A stretch of 38,095 nucleotides of DNA from Actinomycetes bacterium (GTDB lineage Bacteria > Actinomycetota > Acidimicrobiia > Acidimicrobiales > RAAP-2): the NCBI GenBank assembly GCA_021790675.1, contig JAJYGN010000077.1, forward strand, positions 1 through 38,095, written 5' to 3'. A program made the translations under genes and the position numbers. Below are positions 32,560 through 38,095 of this stretch, in pieces. A model generated the notes under the pieces. It did not search any database. It was not told the origin of the DNA and saw nothing but the letters and a program-made list of their open reading frames with translations. Positions within the stretch are counted from its first letter, which is position 1. Every line of letters starts with the position of its first letter.

Positions 32560-33345
32560 GTGTCGCCAGTTGCAGAAGGTTCCTCTGGGCGCGTCGCTTT
32601 GGTTACCGGCGCGGGTGCCGCTGAGGGAATTGGCTTTGCCAGCGCTCGCGCCCTCGCCGCGTCGGGCGCTCACCTCGTTCTCACCTCGACGACCCCGCGG
32701 ATCTTCGATCGTGTTGACGAACTGCGCGCGCAGGGTGTTGACGCGCGCGGCCTGGTCGGTGATCTCACCGACCCCGCGACGTCCACGTCGCTCGTCGAAC
32801 TCGCCCTCGAGTTCTGGGGGCGACTCGACGTCGTCGTGCACAACGCGGGCATGACCTCTCTGAGTGATCCCTCGTTTTCGACCGGGGCACTCGAGGAGAT
32901 CGACACGGCCCACTGGCGCGCGGGCATCGCGCGCAACCTCGACACCGCCTTCTACGTGGCCAAGGCGTGCCTGCCCTCTCTGTGCGACAGCGACGCGGGC
33001 CGGCTGGTCGTTGTGGCCAGCGTGACGGGCCCGGTTATGGCGATGCGCCACGAGCCGGTCTACGCCGCGGCCAAGGCCGGTCTGGTTGGCCTGGCGCGTG
33101 GCCTCGCCCTCGACTACGCAGATCGCGCTGTCACGGTAAACGCGGTTGCGCCAGGCTGGATCGCCACCGGCTCTCAGACCGAACACGAGGCGCGCCAGGG
33201 TGTGGCGAGCCCGATGGGTCGCAGCGGTACGCCAGAGGAGATCGCGGCGGTGATCGACTTTCTCGCCTCGCCACGCGCGTCGTATCTGACAGGTCAGTGC
33301 ATCGTGGTTGACGGTGCTAACTCCATTGCCGAAGAGCGCCGATAG
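32560..33345 (+). CDS. Short-chain dehydrogenase/reductase (FabG-like)
   Basis: 261 residues of a classical SDR. The cofactor loop is TGAGAAEGIG (16-25), NAGM follows near 96, the catalytic pair is Y168 and K172 in YAAAK, and the serine lies in VVASVTG about 13 residues before. The C-terminus, with DFLASPRASYLTGQCIVVDGA, is typical of 3-oxoacyl-ACP reductase-like enzymes. It reduces or oxidises a hydroxy/keto group with NAD(P)(H); the substrate cannot be told. GTG at 32560 has GGGAG 4 bases upstream. It is 37 bases behind the GGDEF gene and may be co-transcribed by proximity only. Confidence 0.9.
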   Translation: MSPVAEGSSGRVALVTGAGAAEGIGFASARALAASGAHLVLTSTTPRIFDRVDELRAQGVDARGLVGDLTDPATSTSLVELALEFWGRLDVVVHNAGMTSLSDPSFSTGALEEIDTAHWRAGIARNLDTAFYVAKACLPSLCDSDAGRLVVVASVTGPVMAMRHEPVYAAAKAGLVGLARGLALDYADRAVTVNAVAPGWIATGSQTEHEARQGVASPMGRSGTPEEIAAVIDFLASPRASYLTGQCIVVDGANSIAEERR

Positions 33346-33403: not shown

Positions 33404-34348
33404 GTGCGAGAGACTACGGTACGGCGCGAGCGCAGCCCCCGTGGTCGTCACGCTGTTCATAGGCCTCGCCGGGTCGTCCGCGCTCTCCTCGCGCTGGCGG
33501 TCGTCGCAATCGTGGGGGTTGTCGGCTTGCAGCGTTTCATCGGTGGGGCGTCAACGTCACCCACGTCGGGCTTCTACCTGGTGGTGGGCGCGTCGGCGTC
33601 ACTTGGCTTTCAGCCCACCGGCATCGTGCATCACAACGGGGCGCGCACCGATCGCGGCTACGCCGACGACGTCGTGGCGATGGAGCAGAAGAGGGGCGTG
33701 GATCTGACCATGCGACAGATTGGATGTCCTGGTGAGACGACGTATTCGATGCTGCATACGGGGGATCACTGCTACGTGGGTTCAGGTAGCCAGCGCAACG
33801 CCGCACGCATCTATCTTGGTCAGCACCACGACCAAGCCGGTCTGATCACGATTGACCTGGGCTTTAACGACGTGCGCCCGTGCCTGTGGAAATGGGTGCC
33901 TGACTCCGCGTGCGTCGCGAAGGGCCTCGCCCAGATTCGTGCGAATCTCCCAGGGGACATCAAGCTACTTCAGACCTACGCCGGTGCCCACGTGCACTTC
34001 GTCGGGCTCCTCTACGCTGATCCGTTCCTGTCGGACTACGTCAACCCGCACTCGGGCGCGGCCTCGGCAGAACAGACGCGCGTACTCGTGACCGACCTCG
34101 ACAACGAGTTGACCTCGATCTATCGCGCCGCGAATATCCCCATCGCGAACGTGCCCGGCGCGTTCCACATGGATAATGTCAGCGCGACGAAGTGGGACCA
34201 GCGACCTGTGCCCACGAACGTCCTCTACGCCTGCTCGTGGACCTGGATGTGCACGCCGCCGCCGTGGGGGCCCGACGATCACCCCAACGACGCGGGCTAT
34301 CGCGCCATTGCGAACGCCATCGAGGTGGCCGTACCGACAACCTGGTGA
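33404..34348 (+). CDS. SGNH/GDSL hydrolase-type exported protein
   Basis: 314 residues. A basic N-terminus and one membrane segment (about 24-43) place the rest outside the cell. SGNH blocks are present: block I GASASLG (serine S64), block II glycine in IGCPGET, block III GFND (153-156), and block V with D-D-H293 in DDHPNDAGY. The GDS core reads GAS. Several cysteines in the outer domain could form disulfides. Such enzymes remove or transfer acyl groups on lipids or glycans. The start is GTG 33404, with GGGGGA about 8 bases upstream. The acyltransferase-3 gene at 37261 could be a functional partner, but four genes lie between them. Confidence 0.87.
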   Translation: MRETTVRRERSPRGRHAVHRPRRVVRALLALAVVAIVGVVGLQRFIGGASTSPTSGFYLVVGASASLGFQPTGIVHHNGARTDRGYADDVVAMEQKRGVDLTMRQIGCPGETTYSMLHTGDHCYVGSGSQRNAARIYLGQHHDQAGLITIDLGFNDVRPCLWKWVPDSACVAKGLAQIRANLPGDIKLLQTYAGAHVHFVGLLYADPFLSDYVNPHSGAASAEQTRVLVTDLDNELTSIYRAANIPIANVPGAFHMDNVSATKWDQRPVPTNVLYACSWTWMCTPPPWGPDDHPNDAGYRAIANAIEVAVPTTW

Positions 34349-34582: not shown

Positions 34583-35377
34583 ATGAGCACGTACCTTGAG
34601 TTGCCGCCGCGCACGTACAAGCCTCGCACTGAGGGCTTGACGATCGCCATCGACAAGGGGTTGCCGACGCGCTACTTCATTGACCTCGTTGAGAGCACGG
34701 GCGAGCATCTCGACTTTGTGAAGTTCGGTTGGGGCACCGCGCTGGTCTCTCGCGAACTCAAGGTGAAGATCGACGCGCTCACGCGCGAACAGATCGGTTT
34801 CTACTTTGGCGGAACTCTCTTTGAGAAGTTCGTGCTCCAGGATCGTCTCGACGACTTTCGCCGTCTCTGCGAGGAGTTCGGCGCCACACATGTCGAGGTG
34901 TCCAACGGAACAATCGCGCTCTCGGACGATCGCAAGGCCGAGTACGTCGCCGAATTGTCGCGCGACTTTCACGTGGTGTCCGAAGTCGGGTCAAAGGACC
35001 AGGTCAAGAGCGAGACGATGTCGCCGGCCAAGTGGATCGCGGCGATTCGCTCAGACCTGTCGGCTGGGGCGACACTCGTGACGCTCGAGACGCGCGAGAG
35101 CGGACAAGGCGGCATCTGCCGGCCCAACGGTGAGCTGCGCTTCGGATTGATCGAGGAGATCCTCGAAAGCGACGTCGACACGGCGCACCTCTTGTTTGAG
35201 GCGCCAACTCTGGAGTTGCAGGCGTACTTCGTACGCCGTGTCGGTCCGGATGCAAATCTTGGCAACATCGCGCCGTCGGATCTCATTAGCCTGGAGACGA
35301 TTCGCCTCGGGCTGCGCAGTGACACGCTGTTCGCGTTCGAGCCCGAGGACGTGCAGCGGCACCACGGTGCGCTGTGA
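34583..35377 (+). CDS. comA: Phosphosulfolactate synthase (ComA family)
   Basis: 264 residues, the usual ComA length. Conserved blocks run in order: FVKFGWGTA (46-53), FGGTLFE (76-82), HVEVSNGTI (103-111), SEVGSKD (133-139), ETRESGQGGI (169-178), LLFEAPTLELQ (203-213) and ANLGNIAPSDLISLETIRLGLRSDT (224-248). ComA adds sulfite to phosphoenolpyruvate to give (R)-phosphosulfolactate, the first step of coenzyme M synthesis in archaea and of sulfolactate synthesis in some bacteria. ATG at 34583 has GGAGAGAG about 5 bases upstream; a longer in-frame start at 34454 lies in a region unlike the family. The VOC gene overlaps its stop by 4 bases. The later Com enzymes (ComB, ComC) are not in the window, so the end product is open. 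Confidence 0.92.
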   Translation: MSTYLELPPRTYKPRTEGLTIAIDKGLPTRYFIDLVESTGEHLDFVKFGWGTALVSRELKVKIDALTREQIGFYFGGTLFEKFVLQDRLDDFRRLCEEFGATHVEVSNGTIALSDDRKAEYVAELSRDFHVVSEVGSKDQVKSETMSPAKWIAAIRSDLSAGATLVTLETRESGQGGICRPNGELRFGLIEEILESDVDTAHLLFEAPTLELQAYFVRRVGPDANLGNIAPSDLISLETIRLGLRSDTLFAFEPEDVQRHHGAL

Positions 35378-35784
35378 GAGACAGCGGTGATGTCTTCCAC
35401 TTGGCCGTACCGGCTTACGACCTCGACGCGACGGTGGACTTCTACGTGTTCACCTTGGGGTGCAAGCTGGCGCGGCGATACGACGACCGAGTGACATTCG
35501 ACTTCTTCGGTGATCAGCTGGTCTGTCACCTCTCGCCACGACCCGAACGCCTGTCGATCGAAGATGTCACGATGTACCCACGCCACTTCGGCGTCACCTT
35601 TCGTGAGCGCCGCGACTTTGACGCGCTCTACTCGCTCTGTCGTCAGCGTGACGTGCCGTTCTTCGCCGACGTGAGTGAACGTTTTGTTGGCCTCGTCGAA
35701 GTACATTCGACATTCGTGGTATACGACCCGGCCCTTAACCTGCTTGAATTCAAGCACTACACCGATCCGCGGATGATGTATTGA
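35374..35784 (+). CDS. VOC-superfamily protein (glyoxalase/dioxygenase fold)
   Basis: 136 residues, one VOC unit of paired beta-alpha-beta-beta-beta modules. It starts with FHLAVPAYDLDATVDFYVFTLG, whose H9 is a likely metal ligand. TFDFFGDQLVCHL follows near 48-60, HFGV near 70, and the final ligand glutamate lies in NLLEFKHY. VOC proteins use a metal to isomerise, cleave or oxidise small molecules. The FDFFGxQLVxH variant occurs in uncharacterised members. GTG at 35374 overlaps comA (GTGA), so its substrate is probably a metabolite of the same pathway. The reaction is unknown. Confidence 0.85.
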   Translation: MRDSGDVFHLAVPAYDLDATVDFYVFTLGCKLARRYDDRVTFDFFGDQLVCHLSPRPERLSIEDVTMYPRHFGVTFRERRDFDALYSLCRQRDVPFFADVSERFVGLVEVHSTFVVYDPALNLLEFKHYTDPRMMY

Positions 35785-35788
35785 ATTC

Positions 35789-37264
35789 ATGTCCTCAACT
35801 TCGCCGGCCACGCCGGACACACTGCGAGCGCTGCTAGCGGCACGGGCCGAGCGATCGGGCGATGCGACGTACCTGTTGGCGGCGCGAACTAGTCGAAGTC
35901 TCACCTACCTGCGCCTCGCCGAGGCGGCCGAGCACTGGCAACGGGTCGTGGCACCCTGGGGGCGCTCGGTGCGCGTGGGACTGCTCGTCAGCGATCCCCT
36001 TGACTTCGCCGAGGCCTTTCTTGGCCTGATCAGCGCGGGTGTGTGGGTCGCACCACTCGATCCAACTGCGAACCCCCTGAATCCAGATACCGTGAGGCGC
36101 TGGACGTCGACTCTTGGCCTGTCGCACGTGATCGCCGATCGTCACGGGCCGAGCCCCCTGGACGTTTCTTGGCACCATGTCGATGACGACACCTCGGTGA
36201 ATGACATCGCGCCAGCCGCGAGCGGGGGAGTGCTGCTCGCTTCCTCGGGCACCACCGGGGCACCGAAGGTGATGGCCTTGTCCGAAGCCCAGCTCCTCGT
36301 GGCGGCGGGACTCATTGCACGGCACAATCGCCTAGATGAGCATGAACGTGGATTCAATCCGCTGCCCCTGTGGCATATCAACGCCGAGGTCGTGGGCCTG
36401 TTGGCGACGCTAGTGGCCGGGGCATCCCTCGTCCTAGATGAGCGCTTCCATCGCACACGCTTTTGGGACGTGATCCGCGAGCACCACGTGACCTGGATCA
36501 ACGCGGTGCCCGCGATCATCGCGCGCCTCGCTGACGTGGGCGAGGACGAGCGCGTTCCCTCCGGCGTGCGTTTCATCCGCTCGGCGTCCGCGCCCCTCTC
36601 GGCTGCGCTGCTGACGCGCTTTGAGACCGCCACTGGCATTCGCGTCGTTGAGTCCTACGGCATGACCGAGGCGGCGAGCCAGATCTGCGTCAATCCGCTC
36701 TCAGGTGGCCGTCGACCCGGATCGGTGGGCCGTGGTGTAGGCGTCGAGGTGCGCGTGGTCGACGGCGAGGTGGTGGCACCCGGGACGGTGGGTCAGGTCG
36801 AGATCCGCGGTCCGTCGGTGATCGACCACTACGAGTCGCCCGCCTACGCCGAGCGATTCTCCGAAGGGGGCTGGCTGGCCACGGGCGACCTGGGGTACTT
36901 GGACACCGACGGCTTCTTGTATCTGGTGGGACGCACCGACGACGTTATTAACCGCGGTGGCGAGAAGATTTTTCCGCGCGAAATCGAAGAGGTGGCCCTC
37001 GAGGTGCCCGGTGTAGCGGGCGCCGCCGTGGTGGGCGTGAGCGATGAAGTCTTTGGCGAGCTACCGGTCCTCTTCGTCGAGATCGACGACGATGTGCACG
37101 GGACGATCGCACACCTGCACGAGGTCCTCGTCGAAGGACTGACCCGCGTGCGTCGTCCGGTGGAGATCAGGGTCGTGGAGGCGCTGCCGCGCCACGCCAC
37201 GGGCAAGATCCAAAAGCGGGGATTGCGCGGCGCCATCGTGACTCACGTTGAGGCGCTGCAGTGA
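35789..37264 (+). CDS. AMP-forming acyl-CoA synthetase (oxalyl-CoA/fatty-acyl ligase-like)
   Basis: 491 residues of the ANL superfamily. The phosphate loop is SSGTTGAPK (152-160) and YGMTE (290-294) precedes the AMP site. ATGDLGYLDTDGFLYLVGRTDDVINRGGEKIFP forms the hinge and mobile domain. The catalytic lysine is K473 in HATGKIQK. The segment LPLWHINAEVVGLLATLVAGASLVLDERF resembles oxalyl-CoA synthetases (Pcs60/AAE3), so a small or dicarboxylic acid is possible. These enzymes activate a carboxylic acid as acyl-AMP and then acyl-CoA. ATG lies 4 bases after the VOC gene, and the acyltransferase overlaps its stop by 4 bases. The context suggests it activates an acid made by the ComA/VOC steps or the acyl group to be transferred. 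Confidence 0.88.
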   Translation: MSSTSPATPDTLRALLAARAERSGDATYLLAARTSRSLTYLRLAEAAEHWQRVVAPWGRSVRVGLLVSDPLDFAEAFLGLISAGVWVAPLDPTANPLNPDTVRRWTSTLGLSHVIADRHGPSPLDVSWHHVDDDTSVNDIAPAASGGVLLASSGTTGAPKVMALSEAQLLVAAGLIARHNRLDEHERGFNPLPLWHINAEVVGLLATLVAGASLVLDERFHRTRFWDVIREHHVTWINAVPAIIARLADVGEDERVPSGVRFIRSASAPLSAALLTRFETATGIRVVESYGMTEAASQICVNPLSGGRRPGSVGRGVGVEVRVVDGEVVAPGTVGQVEIRGPSVIDHYESPAYAERFSEGGWLATGDLGYLDTDGFLYLVGRTDDVINRGGEKIFPREIEEVALEVPGVAGAAVVGVSDEVFGELPVLFVEIDDDVHGTIAHLHEVLVEGLTRVRRPVEIRVVEALPRHATGKIQKRGLRGAIVTHVEALQ

Positions 37265-38095
37265 GCGATGTGACGCCCGCGCCGGGCACGCGAAAGCGCC
37301 TCGAGCACATCGACGCGATGCGCCCGATCAAGCAGGCCGCCGTTATTTCGACCCACGCGCTGATCTTCTTCGCGCCGATCGGCGCGAACGTGGTGGCGAC
37401 GGGTGTGATCATGCTGACGCGCTTCTCACGCGACGCATTCCTCTTCGTCTCGGCCTGCATGCTCGCCTATAGCTATCGCGACGCCGCGCGCATCAAGCTG
37501 GCGACGTATTCGAAGAAGCGTTTGATCGCGGTGGGCCTGCCCTACGTGACCTGGACGGTGATTTACTTCGTCTATACCCGGCTGAGCACGCAAACGGGCT
37601 TTCCCTACTACACGTTGCACGTCGGTCGAGTTCTGTCCGCGTCGGGCCTGCACTACTTCTGGCACCTCTTCGCGACGGGCTACTACCACCTGTACTACCT
37701 GCTCGTGATCCTCGAGTTCTACGCGGTCTTTCCCTGGCTATTGCGCGCCCTGAAACGCGTTCCGCGCTGGCACGTGGCCATCATGATCGCCTCAGTTGCC
37801 TGGCAGCTCTTCTATGGTGCGCTGGTCGGAGCGCACCTCTTCGGCGTCGTCATCCCGGGCACGATCCAGACGCGGTTGCTGATTTCGTATCCCATCTACC
37901 TCGTGGGAGGAGTCATCGTCGCGCTGCACCTCGATGACGTACACGACTGGATTGTCTCGCACGCCCTTGTCATCGTCGCGGGCACCCTGGGAGGAGTGGC
38001 CCTCGCCGAGGCGATCTTGGTGATGAGTCGTCACGTGGCGATGCCGGCGTACCTGTTGACCGGGACGGAAGTCTTCTCGCCGGCGATCGTGCCCT
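37261..38095 (+). CDS. Acyltransferase-3 family membrane protein (partial, cut by right edge)
   Basis: 278 residues are visible and the frame stays open to the window end. The order is that of AT3 integral-membrane acyltransferases: an N-terminal HIDAMRPIKQAAVISTHALIFF, then a FLFVSACMLAYSYR segment, a basic loop with YSKKRLIAVGLPYVTW, an aromatic-rich HYFWHLFATGYYHLYYLLVILEFYAVFP stretch, and further helices. About seven membrane segments are present. AT3 proteins move acyl groups onto glycans, lipids or antibiotics at the membrane. GTG at 37261 overlaps the ligase gene (GTGA), so it is in the same transcript as comA. The acceptor is unknown. Confidence 0.88.
   Translation, partial: MSDVTPAPGTRKRLEHIDAMRPIKQAAVISTHALIFFAPIGANVVATGVIMLTRFSRDAFLFVSACMLAYSYRDAARIKLATYSKKRLIAVGLPYVTWTVIYFVYTRLSTQTGFPYYTLHVGRVLSASGLHYFWHLFATGYYHLYYLLVILEFYAVFPWLLRALKRVPRWHVAIMIASVAWQLFYGALVGAHLFGVVIPGTIQTRLLISYPIYLVGGVIVALHLDDVHDWIVSHALVIVAGTLGGVALAEAILVMSRHVAMPAYLLTGTEVFSPAIVP

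Follow-up and report, generated by a model that had tools for sequence, protein, structure and literature searches.

A comA-led gene cassette of Acidimicrobiales with a possible role in making and esterifying 3-sulfolactate

The window analysed here is a stretch of 38,095 bases, the whole of contig C23 (JAJYGN010000077.1) of an Acidimicrobiales draft genome, G000 (GenBank assembly GCA_021790675.1; 2.04 Mb in 117 contigs, 86.6% complete). At its right end lies a cassette of four genes for a phosphosulfolactate synthase-like protein (ComA), a VOC-superfamily protein, an AMP-forming acyl-CoA ligase and an AT3 membrane acyltransferase. As judged by homology, the cassette would make 3-sulfolactate and conjugate it through an ester at the membrane, an assignment that is tentative and is given somewhat less than an even chance. 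No description of a comA-VOC-ligase-AT3 cassette was found among the open-access papers searched, and the gene set is apparently undescribed so far. A preceding sequence-only reading of the window had described four genes joined by 4-base overlaps or a 4-base gap. This arrangement is exact to the base, open reading frame positions giving an overlap of 4 bases at the comA/VOC and ligase/AT3 junctions and a gap of 4 bases between the VOC and ligase genes, and the families were confirmed by Pfam (Table 1). Pfam matches were judged against gathering cut-offs and NCBIfam matches against curated cut-offs. Genomes, fetched loci or stretches, and contigs are labelled G, L and C, respectively; L025 represents genome G029 and L026 represents G014.

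In the proposed pathway, ComA would add sulfite to phosphoenolpyruvate (PEP) to give 2-phospho-3-sulfolactate, a step strongly suggested by its family. A dedicated histidine phosphatase encoded just past AT3 would replace the usual enzyme, ComB, and release sulfolactate, as genomic linkage suggests, and the AMP-forming ligase would, less surely, convert sulfolactate to sulfolactyl-CoA. AT3 would then move the acyl group across the membrane onto an acceptor that is exported or part of the envelope; in the window's subgroup this transfer may pass through one of the flanking SGNH proteins, as it does in known AT3-SGNH systems. The VOC protein would probably serve as a metal-dependent helper that acts after sulfolactate has been formed.

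The distribution of comA, VOC and AT3 was surveyed in 61 relatives of G000, 396 genomes of the phylum and 296 of the class, samples that overlap, and 40 larger stretches were fetched and compared by tblastn and clustering. The genomes are drafts, mostly of one genus, and represent few independent events. Neighbouring genes were called with a home-made codon-score caller, which missed the VOC gene in L026, the phosphatase gene in L042 and L166, and the AT3 gene in L165; these were recovered by tblastn or genome search. comA was found in 20 of the 61 relatives, 38 of the 396 phylum genomes and 19 of the 296 class genomes. The named relatives are two Acidimicrobiaceae metagenome-assembled genomes, 'clean6' (L025; comA 83% identical) and 'palsa_662' (L026; 61%). 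Among the 25 cassette loci, 22 have all or part of each of comA, VOC, ligase and AT3 on a single contig. Nineteen of these are ordered as in the window, including that of G584 from another family, and three have the order ligase-AT3-comA-VOC, namely G057, from another family of the order, and G151 and G248, both from outside the class. The other three loci are those of G034, which is split over two contigs, G553, which lacks VOC, and G605, whose contig (C815) ends before the ligase and AT3. Because the gene set is conserved in relatives, it is not due to chance.

AT3 was detected in 20 of the 61 relatives, with a fragment in one more (G027), and was present in 19 of the 20 comA genomes versus 1 of the 41 others (the G027 fragment counted as absent; Fisher 1.3e-13, ignoring kinship). 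VOC was found in 18 relatives, beside comA in every one (Fisher 1.4e-13, uncorrected for kinship), and in 6 of the 396 phylum genomes, again always beside comA; G000 and G013 are common to both samples. In G027, which has neither comA nor VOC, the phosphatase gene lies beside the AT3 fragment, and this is read as a decayed cassette.

ComA covers positions 2-243 of the 243 of PF02679. Its closest relative in the PDB is 1u83, 'Phosphosulfolactate synthase' (E 4.8e-78, 265 bits), presumably a B. subtilis protein, and the archaeal enzyme 1qwg scored 148 bits; ComA aligns with both over nearly its full length and retains the conserved motifs. Sixty residues are invariant across 29 of the clade's 31 ComA sequences, including K138, which aligns with K137 of the M. 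jannaschii enzyme, taken here to be catalytic. The score against the archaeal ComA equivalog model (NCBIfam TIGR03849) was 221.6 bits, below the cut-off of 280. In a tree of 46 rows (42 loci and four plasmid rows, a subset of the comA matches), all 25 cassette ComAs fall into one group (100/100) with a long stem, together with six lone ComAs, four of which come from cassette-bearing genomes. Outside this group fall Nocardioides, Xanthobacter and the loci with neighbours like those of coenzyme M (CoM) clusters, several of these rows being long-branched; the Xanthobacter row groups with rows of families f120 and f33, apart from the other CoM-type rows. The CoM-type labels were assigned from neighbours and rest on one neighbour cluster common to G605a and G620.

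It is improbable that this clade has changed its substrate, so that another nucleophile is added to PEP and no sulfonate is made. The long stem, the score below the archaeal cut-off and the clear divergence of one distant comA row (G071) would agree with such a change, but the near full-length alignment with 1u83 and 1qwg, the retained motifs and the invariant residues argue against it. There are strong grounds, by homology, to assign the phosphosulfolactate step to the clade, and the family match and closest structure support the ComA-type C3-sulfonate step named in the sequence-only reading. Second comA copies occur in G012, G015, G248 and G151 (L032, L045, L102 and L104), where the DNA covered shows none of VOC, ligase and AT3. 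In L114 (G071, with a branch of 5.1) and other genomes of family f45, the ComA homologues are very diverged (25-27% identity) and do not retain all of the conserved motifs; as judged by reading the sequence, a PrpD-like gene lies 3' in G071. Decay or assembly error has left an in-frame stop or a frame break in both the comA gene of palsa_662 (L026:4050-4798) and the AT3 gene of G015 (L028:10891-12016).

The AT3 frame is still open at the window's end, where contig C23 stops with no stop codon. Using the full-length L025 AT3 as query, the C-terminal 171 residues were located on another G000 contig, C91, which begins with them and whose bases 4-128 are identical to the window's last 125 bases. 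A phosphatase, which the sequence-only reading had proposed to look for beyond the right end of the contig, was found on C91 directly after AT3. There the AT3 remainder is followed by the convergent histidine phosphatase gene and then by another SGNH-like gene (26.3 bits, under the Pfam cut-off of 32.9), in the same order as in L025, whose phosphatase is 81% identical. Residues R10, H11, G12, R61, E85 and H152, comprising the RHG...H core, are invariant in 20 phosphatase sequences. The closest of 37 matches to solved structures were 1ebb ('phosphatase') and a glucosyl-3-phosphoglycerate phosphatase, with a phosphoserine phosphatase further down.

Matches to the L025 phosphatase split cleanly, with 18 genomes at E <=1.6e-36 and the next at 2.2e-25. 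This cassette-type phosphatase is present in 17 of the 19 comA genomes of the genus versus 1 of 18 without comA (G027; Fisher 1.8e-7, uncorrected for kinship). Over all samples, it adjoins 19 of the 25 cassette loci, with one intervening gene in G553, and is placed either 5' of comA or beyond AT3; G002 and G026, which have no complete cassette, carry it next to comA. In a tree with 15 other homologues, the linked phosphatases form a single group with the G002, G026 and G027 copies (92/88 support, 90% of bootstrap trees), although their genes variously precede comA, follow comA or follow AT3. Because the cassette-type phosphatase tracks comA and ComB was not found in G000, it is inferred that the linked enzyme is a phosphosulfolactate phosphatase unrelated to ComB.

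Both the archaeal and the bacterial types of CoM biosynthesis begin with ComA, and CoM synthesis was therefore considered for the cassette and rejected as very improbable. A search for ComB (PF04029) found none in the 86.6% complete G000 and found it in 8 of the 61 relatives, only two of them among the 20 comA genomes. ComD (TIGR03845, sulfopyruvate decarboxylase alpha) exceeded its cut-off in none of the 61 genomes and gave no match at all in G000; matches below the cut-off occurred in 30 of the 61, all but two of them weak (best E 3e-5 or worse). The CoM clusters of Xanthobacter Py2 and Nocardioides JS614 likewise contain a ComA homologue, but there comA is followed by lyase-family and pyridoxal phosphate (PLP)-enzyme genes, a combination that the available part of PMC11507031 also gives for CoM clusters. 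The window cassette does not include these genes, and no lyase-superfamily or PLP-enzyme genes lie beside the window's comA, whereas L159 and L160 have them. Together with the separate grouping of ComA, these results bear out the view of the sequence-only reading that the genes following comA are not those of CoM synthesis. In L110 and L111, from family f120 of the class, the gene directly before comA is oxidoreductase-like, and SDR genes and two CoA-transferase-like genes lie nearby (by sequence reading), which resembles the Nocardioides JS614 cluster. comA was found in eight f120 genomes of the class sample, and these loci perhaps represent epoxide/CoM metabolism in this class.

The nearest characterised counterpart for the first two steps is the yitCD sulfolactate synthesis of B. 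subtilis (inferred to be of ComA/ComB type), in which a ComA homologue is likewise expected to lead to sulfolactate; in contrast, the cassette has the linked histidine phosphatase instead of ComB and adds the ligase, AT3 and VOC. In Legionella lytica, comA is followed by an annotated 2-phosphosulfolactate phosphatase gene. A sulfonated, acylated product of the capnine type is imaginable for the cassette too. Capnine is made from cysteate by a PLP-dependent acyltransferase; no such enzyme is among the four cassette genes, the only part of the genome considered for one.

The ligase has both an AMP-binding and a C-terminal domain, and 24 sequences share the residues of its SGTTG, YGMTEAA and TGK motifs. 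Among PDB chains, oxalate-CoA ligases are nearest to it, followed by o-succinylbenzoate-CoA ligases. Sulfolactyl is taken as the acyl group mainly because a ligase of its own points to an unusual acid, and such an acid would be made by the cassette itself. Hence, the acid activated by the ligase would most likely be sulfolactate itself.

The full-length L025 AT3 matches PF01757 at 84.1 bits (cut-off 31), and R21 and H32, invariant in an alignment of 23 sequences, form an R-X10-H motif. According to the accessible sections of a review (PMC9558356), an R/K-X10-H motif marks AT3 proteins, the donor is an acyl-CoA, those named being short, and most acceptors are extracytoplasmic sugars, a polyketide being an exception; the anionic groups so transferred include succinyl, and a protein with only the AT3 domain can cooperate with a soluble SGNH protein. 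No word beginning with 'sulf' occurs in the main text of this review. In the L025 protein no SGNH domain is fused to AT3, and SGNH-like genes are separate and nearby. The SGNH protein of the window has SGNH-like residues and an N-terminal hydrophobic stretch, as judged by reading its sequence. In two loci without comA (L164 and L165), SGNH homologues flank ligase-AT3 on both sides. The cassette resembles known systems of AT3 and AT3-SGNH envelope acylation (OafA/OafB, OatA, ExoH and OpgC) in its PF01757 protein with R-X10-H and, in the window's subgroup, in the separate SGNH-like genes adjoining AT3, but differs from them in that it brings its own acid synthesis (comA) and activation (ligase). 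The AT3 proteins of the rearranged loci are only 27-31% identical to that of L025, so the acceptor may differ by lineage.

As the AT3 donors named in that partial text are short acyl-CoAs, a surface ester whose acyl group is sulfolactate would, by analogy, be likelier than a fatty-acyl sulfonolipid. A more specific proposal is rather doubtful, namely that sulfolactyl-CoA is a new acyl donor and that sulfolactyl esters decorate an envelope glycan, a lipid or a secreted product, with a ComB-unrelated phosphosulfolactate phosphatase taking part and the VOC protein acting on sulfolactate or its CoA ester. As part of this proposal, and with the same doubt, the ester would be a permanently charged sulfonate mark.

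The closest PDB match of the VOC protein is 3rri (E 4.9e-55), which carries the superfamily name only and presumably comes from Alicyclobacillus. Genomes of Alicyclobacillus contain comA, according to the part of PMC10562698 available. Residues H9, Q48, H52, H71 and E125 are invariant in 24 of 24 sequences, and some of them are taken as metal ligands by analogy with VOC enzymes; a role as epimerase or isomerase is a guess. VOC is absent from G026 and from the G553 locus, though comA, ligase and AT3 are present in each. Four plasmid records carry relatives with 35-38% identity, and the one examined has no annotated comA within 4 kb. A structure prediction made from only three sequences reached a mean pLDDT of 36.5 and was set aside. 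In loci of families f67 and f129 (L103:11058-11876, L112:2054-2995 and L065), VOC is followed by an esterase-like gene related to PHB depolymerases, which perhaps takes the place of the SGNH proteins.

Several observations weigh against the assignment of all these genes to a single sulfolactate ester pathway. Of the 19 cassettes with a linked phosphatase gene, 18 (all but G584) carry it on the opposite strand and hence outside the cassette operon. Six of the 25 cassettes (G013, G020, G057, G151, G248 and G605) have no linked phosphatase in the DNA seen; the contigs of G013 and G020 run out, the cassette-type phosphatase being found nowhere in either genome, and the G605 locus carries a different histidine phosphatase from outside the linked group. 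SGNH homologues occur in only 8 of the 25 cassette loci, some on short contigs. The ligase scored below the cut-off of every NCBIfam model among the matches listed (25 of 108), including those for malonate, o-succinylbenzoate and fatty acid. An aldehyde dehydrogenase-like gene precedes comA or the ligase in four loci (G020, G034, G553 and G026, only the G553 copy having been scanned against families), which hints at a ligase acid other than sulfolactate. G002 has comA and the phosphatase without VOC or AT3, and G035 (86% complete) has SGNH-ligase-AT3 without comA, VOC or the cassette-type phosphatase; the ligase-AT3 part may be able to work alone. G026, which lacks VOC, has comA and the phosphatase at one locus and SGNH-aldehyde dehydrogenase-ligase-AT3-SGNH at another. 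No such VOC is present in 32 of the 38 comA genomes of the phylum sample, and comA stretches examined from five other families (G191, G071, G156, G226 and G101) include none of the cassette genes. The survey of comA neighbourhoods suggested in the sequence-only reading therefore found the neighbours kept in most comA genomes of the genus but different in G002, G026, the second comA copies and these 32 genomes.

The same observations favour two alternatives. In the first, which is unlikely, sulfolactate is the acceptor: the ligase produces an acyl-CoA, fatty or otherwise, with which AT3 acylates the sulfolactate hydroxyl to give an acyl-sulfolactate sulfonolipid or surfactant, in keeping with the sulfonolipid idea of the sequence-only reading. 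A dedicated ligase adjoining AT3, an aldehyde dehydrogenase that could supply the acid and the separability of ligase-AT3 from comA in G026 and G035 agree with it. The top NCBIfam model among the matches listed for the ligase is also that for a long-chain-fatty-acid ligase, yet at 265 bits versus a cut-off of 476. The donors and acceptors given in the available text of PMC9558356 speak against it, as does the expectation that sulfolactate would form in the cytosol, no exporter gene having been noticed as linked across loci. The second, also unlikely, is that two functions are neighbours through shared regulation or history. Free sulfolactate, made by comA and the phosphatase, would then serve as a solute or to store sulfur, as in Bacillus spores, and an unrelated surface acyl group would be added by ligase-AT3-SGNH. 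The partial gene sets of G002 and G035 are as this would predict, and B. subtilis spores contain sulfolactate as a major component, according to the part of PMC517825 available. However, the presence of AT3 in nearly all comA genomes of the relatives and few others, and the same four genes rearranged in three loci outside the genus, argue against this.

If the sulfolactate ester pathway is correct, C3 sulfonates would gain a biosynthetic use outside CoM and Bacillus spores, a candidate phosphosulfolactate phosphatase unrelated to ComB would be named, and uncultured Actinomycetota would have a sulfonated surface modification. Sulfolactate is already counted among the important species of the sulfur cycle, as stated in the portion of PMC10599462 available.

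Table 1. Genes of the cassette and its flanks in the window (contig C23) and on contig C91 of G000.
Feature	Position	Strand	Basis or remark
SGNH/GDSL-type hydrolase or transferase, possible partner, probably exported	33404..34348	+	Pfam Lipase_GDSL_2 28.5 bits, below 32.9; start codon unsure
comA, phosphosulfolactate synthase-like	34583..35377	+	PF02679 260.6 bits (cut-off 25.2), E 1.6e-77
VOC-superfamily protein, probably metalloenzyme	35374..35784	+	PF00903 38.4 bits (cut-off 20.6)
AMP-forming acyl-CoA ligase (ANL superfamily)	35789..37264	+	PF00501 157 bits (cut-off 29.9), PF13193 52.5 bits (cut-off 24.5)
AT3 membrane acyltransferase, 5' part	37261..38095	+	PF01757 67.5 bits (cut-off 31)
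AT3 C-terminus	C91:2-514		remaining 171 residues
Histidine phosphatase	C91:523-1080	convergent with AT3	PF00300 157.2 bits (cut-off 21.7)

Other genes were seen near the cassette. A PLP decarboxylase-like gene lies near comA or the phosphatase in four loci (L042:11470-12735, L039:5809-6999, L101:15184-16440 and L032:3807-4931), and the L042 copy matches MfnA (TIGR03812) at 214.6 bits, below the cut-off of 299.4. An SDR gene at window positions 32560-33345, just 5' of the SGNH gene, is kept in the nearest relative, L025, and is not beside comA in most other loci, as judged by tblastn. Downstream in one subgroup are chloride channel-like, GNAT-like, DUF3048-like and agmatinase-like genes, named by sequence reading with no family scan, which are read as conserved synteny outside the cassette.

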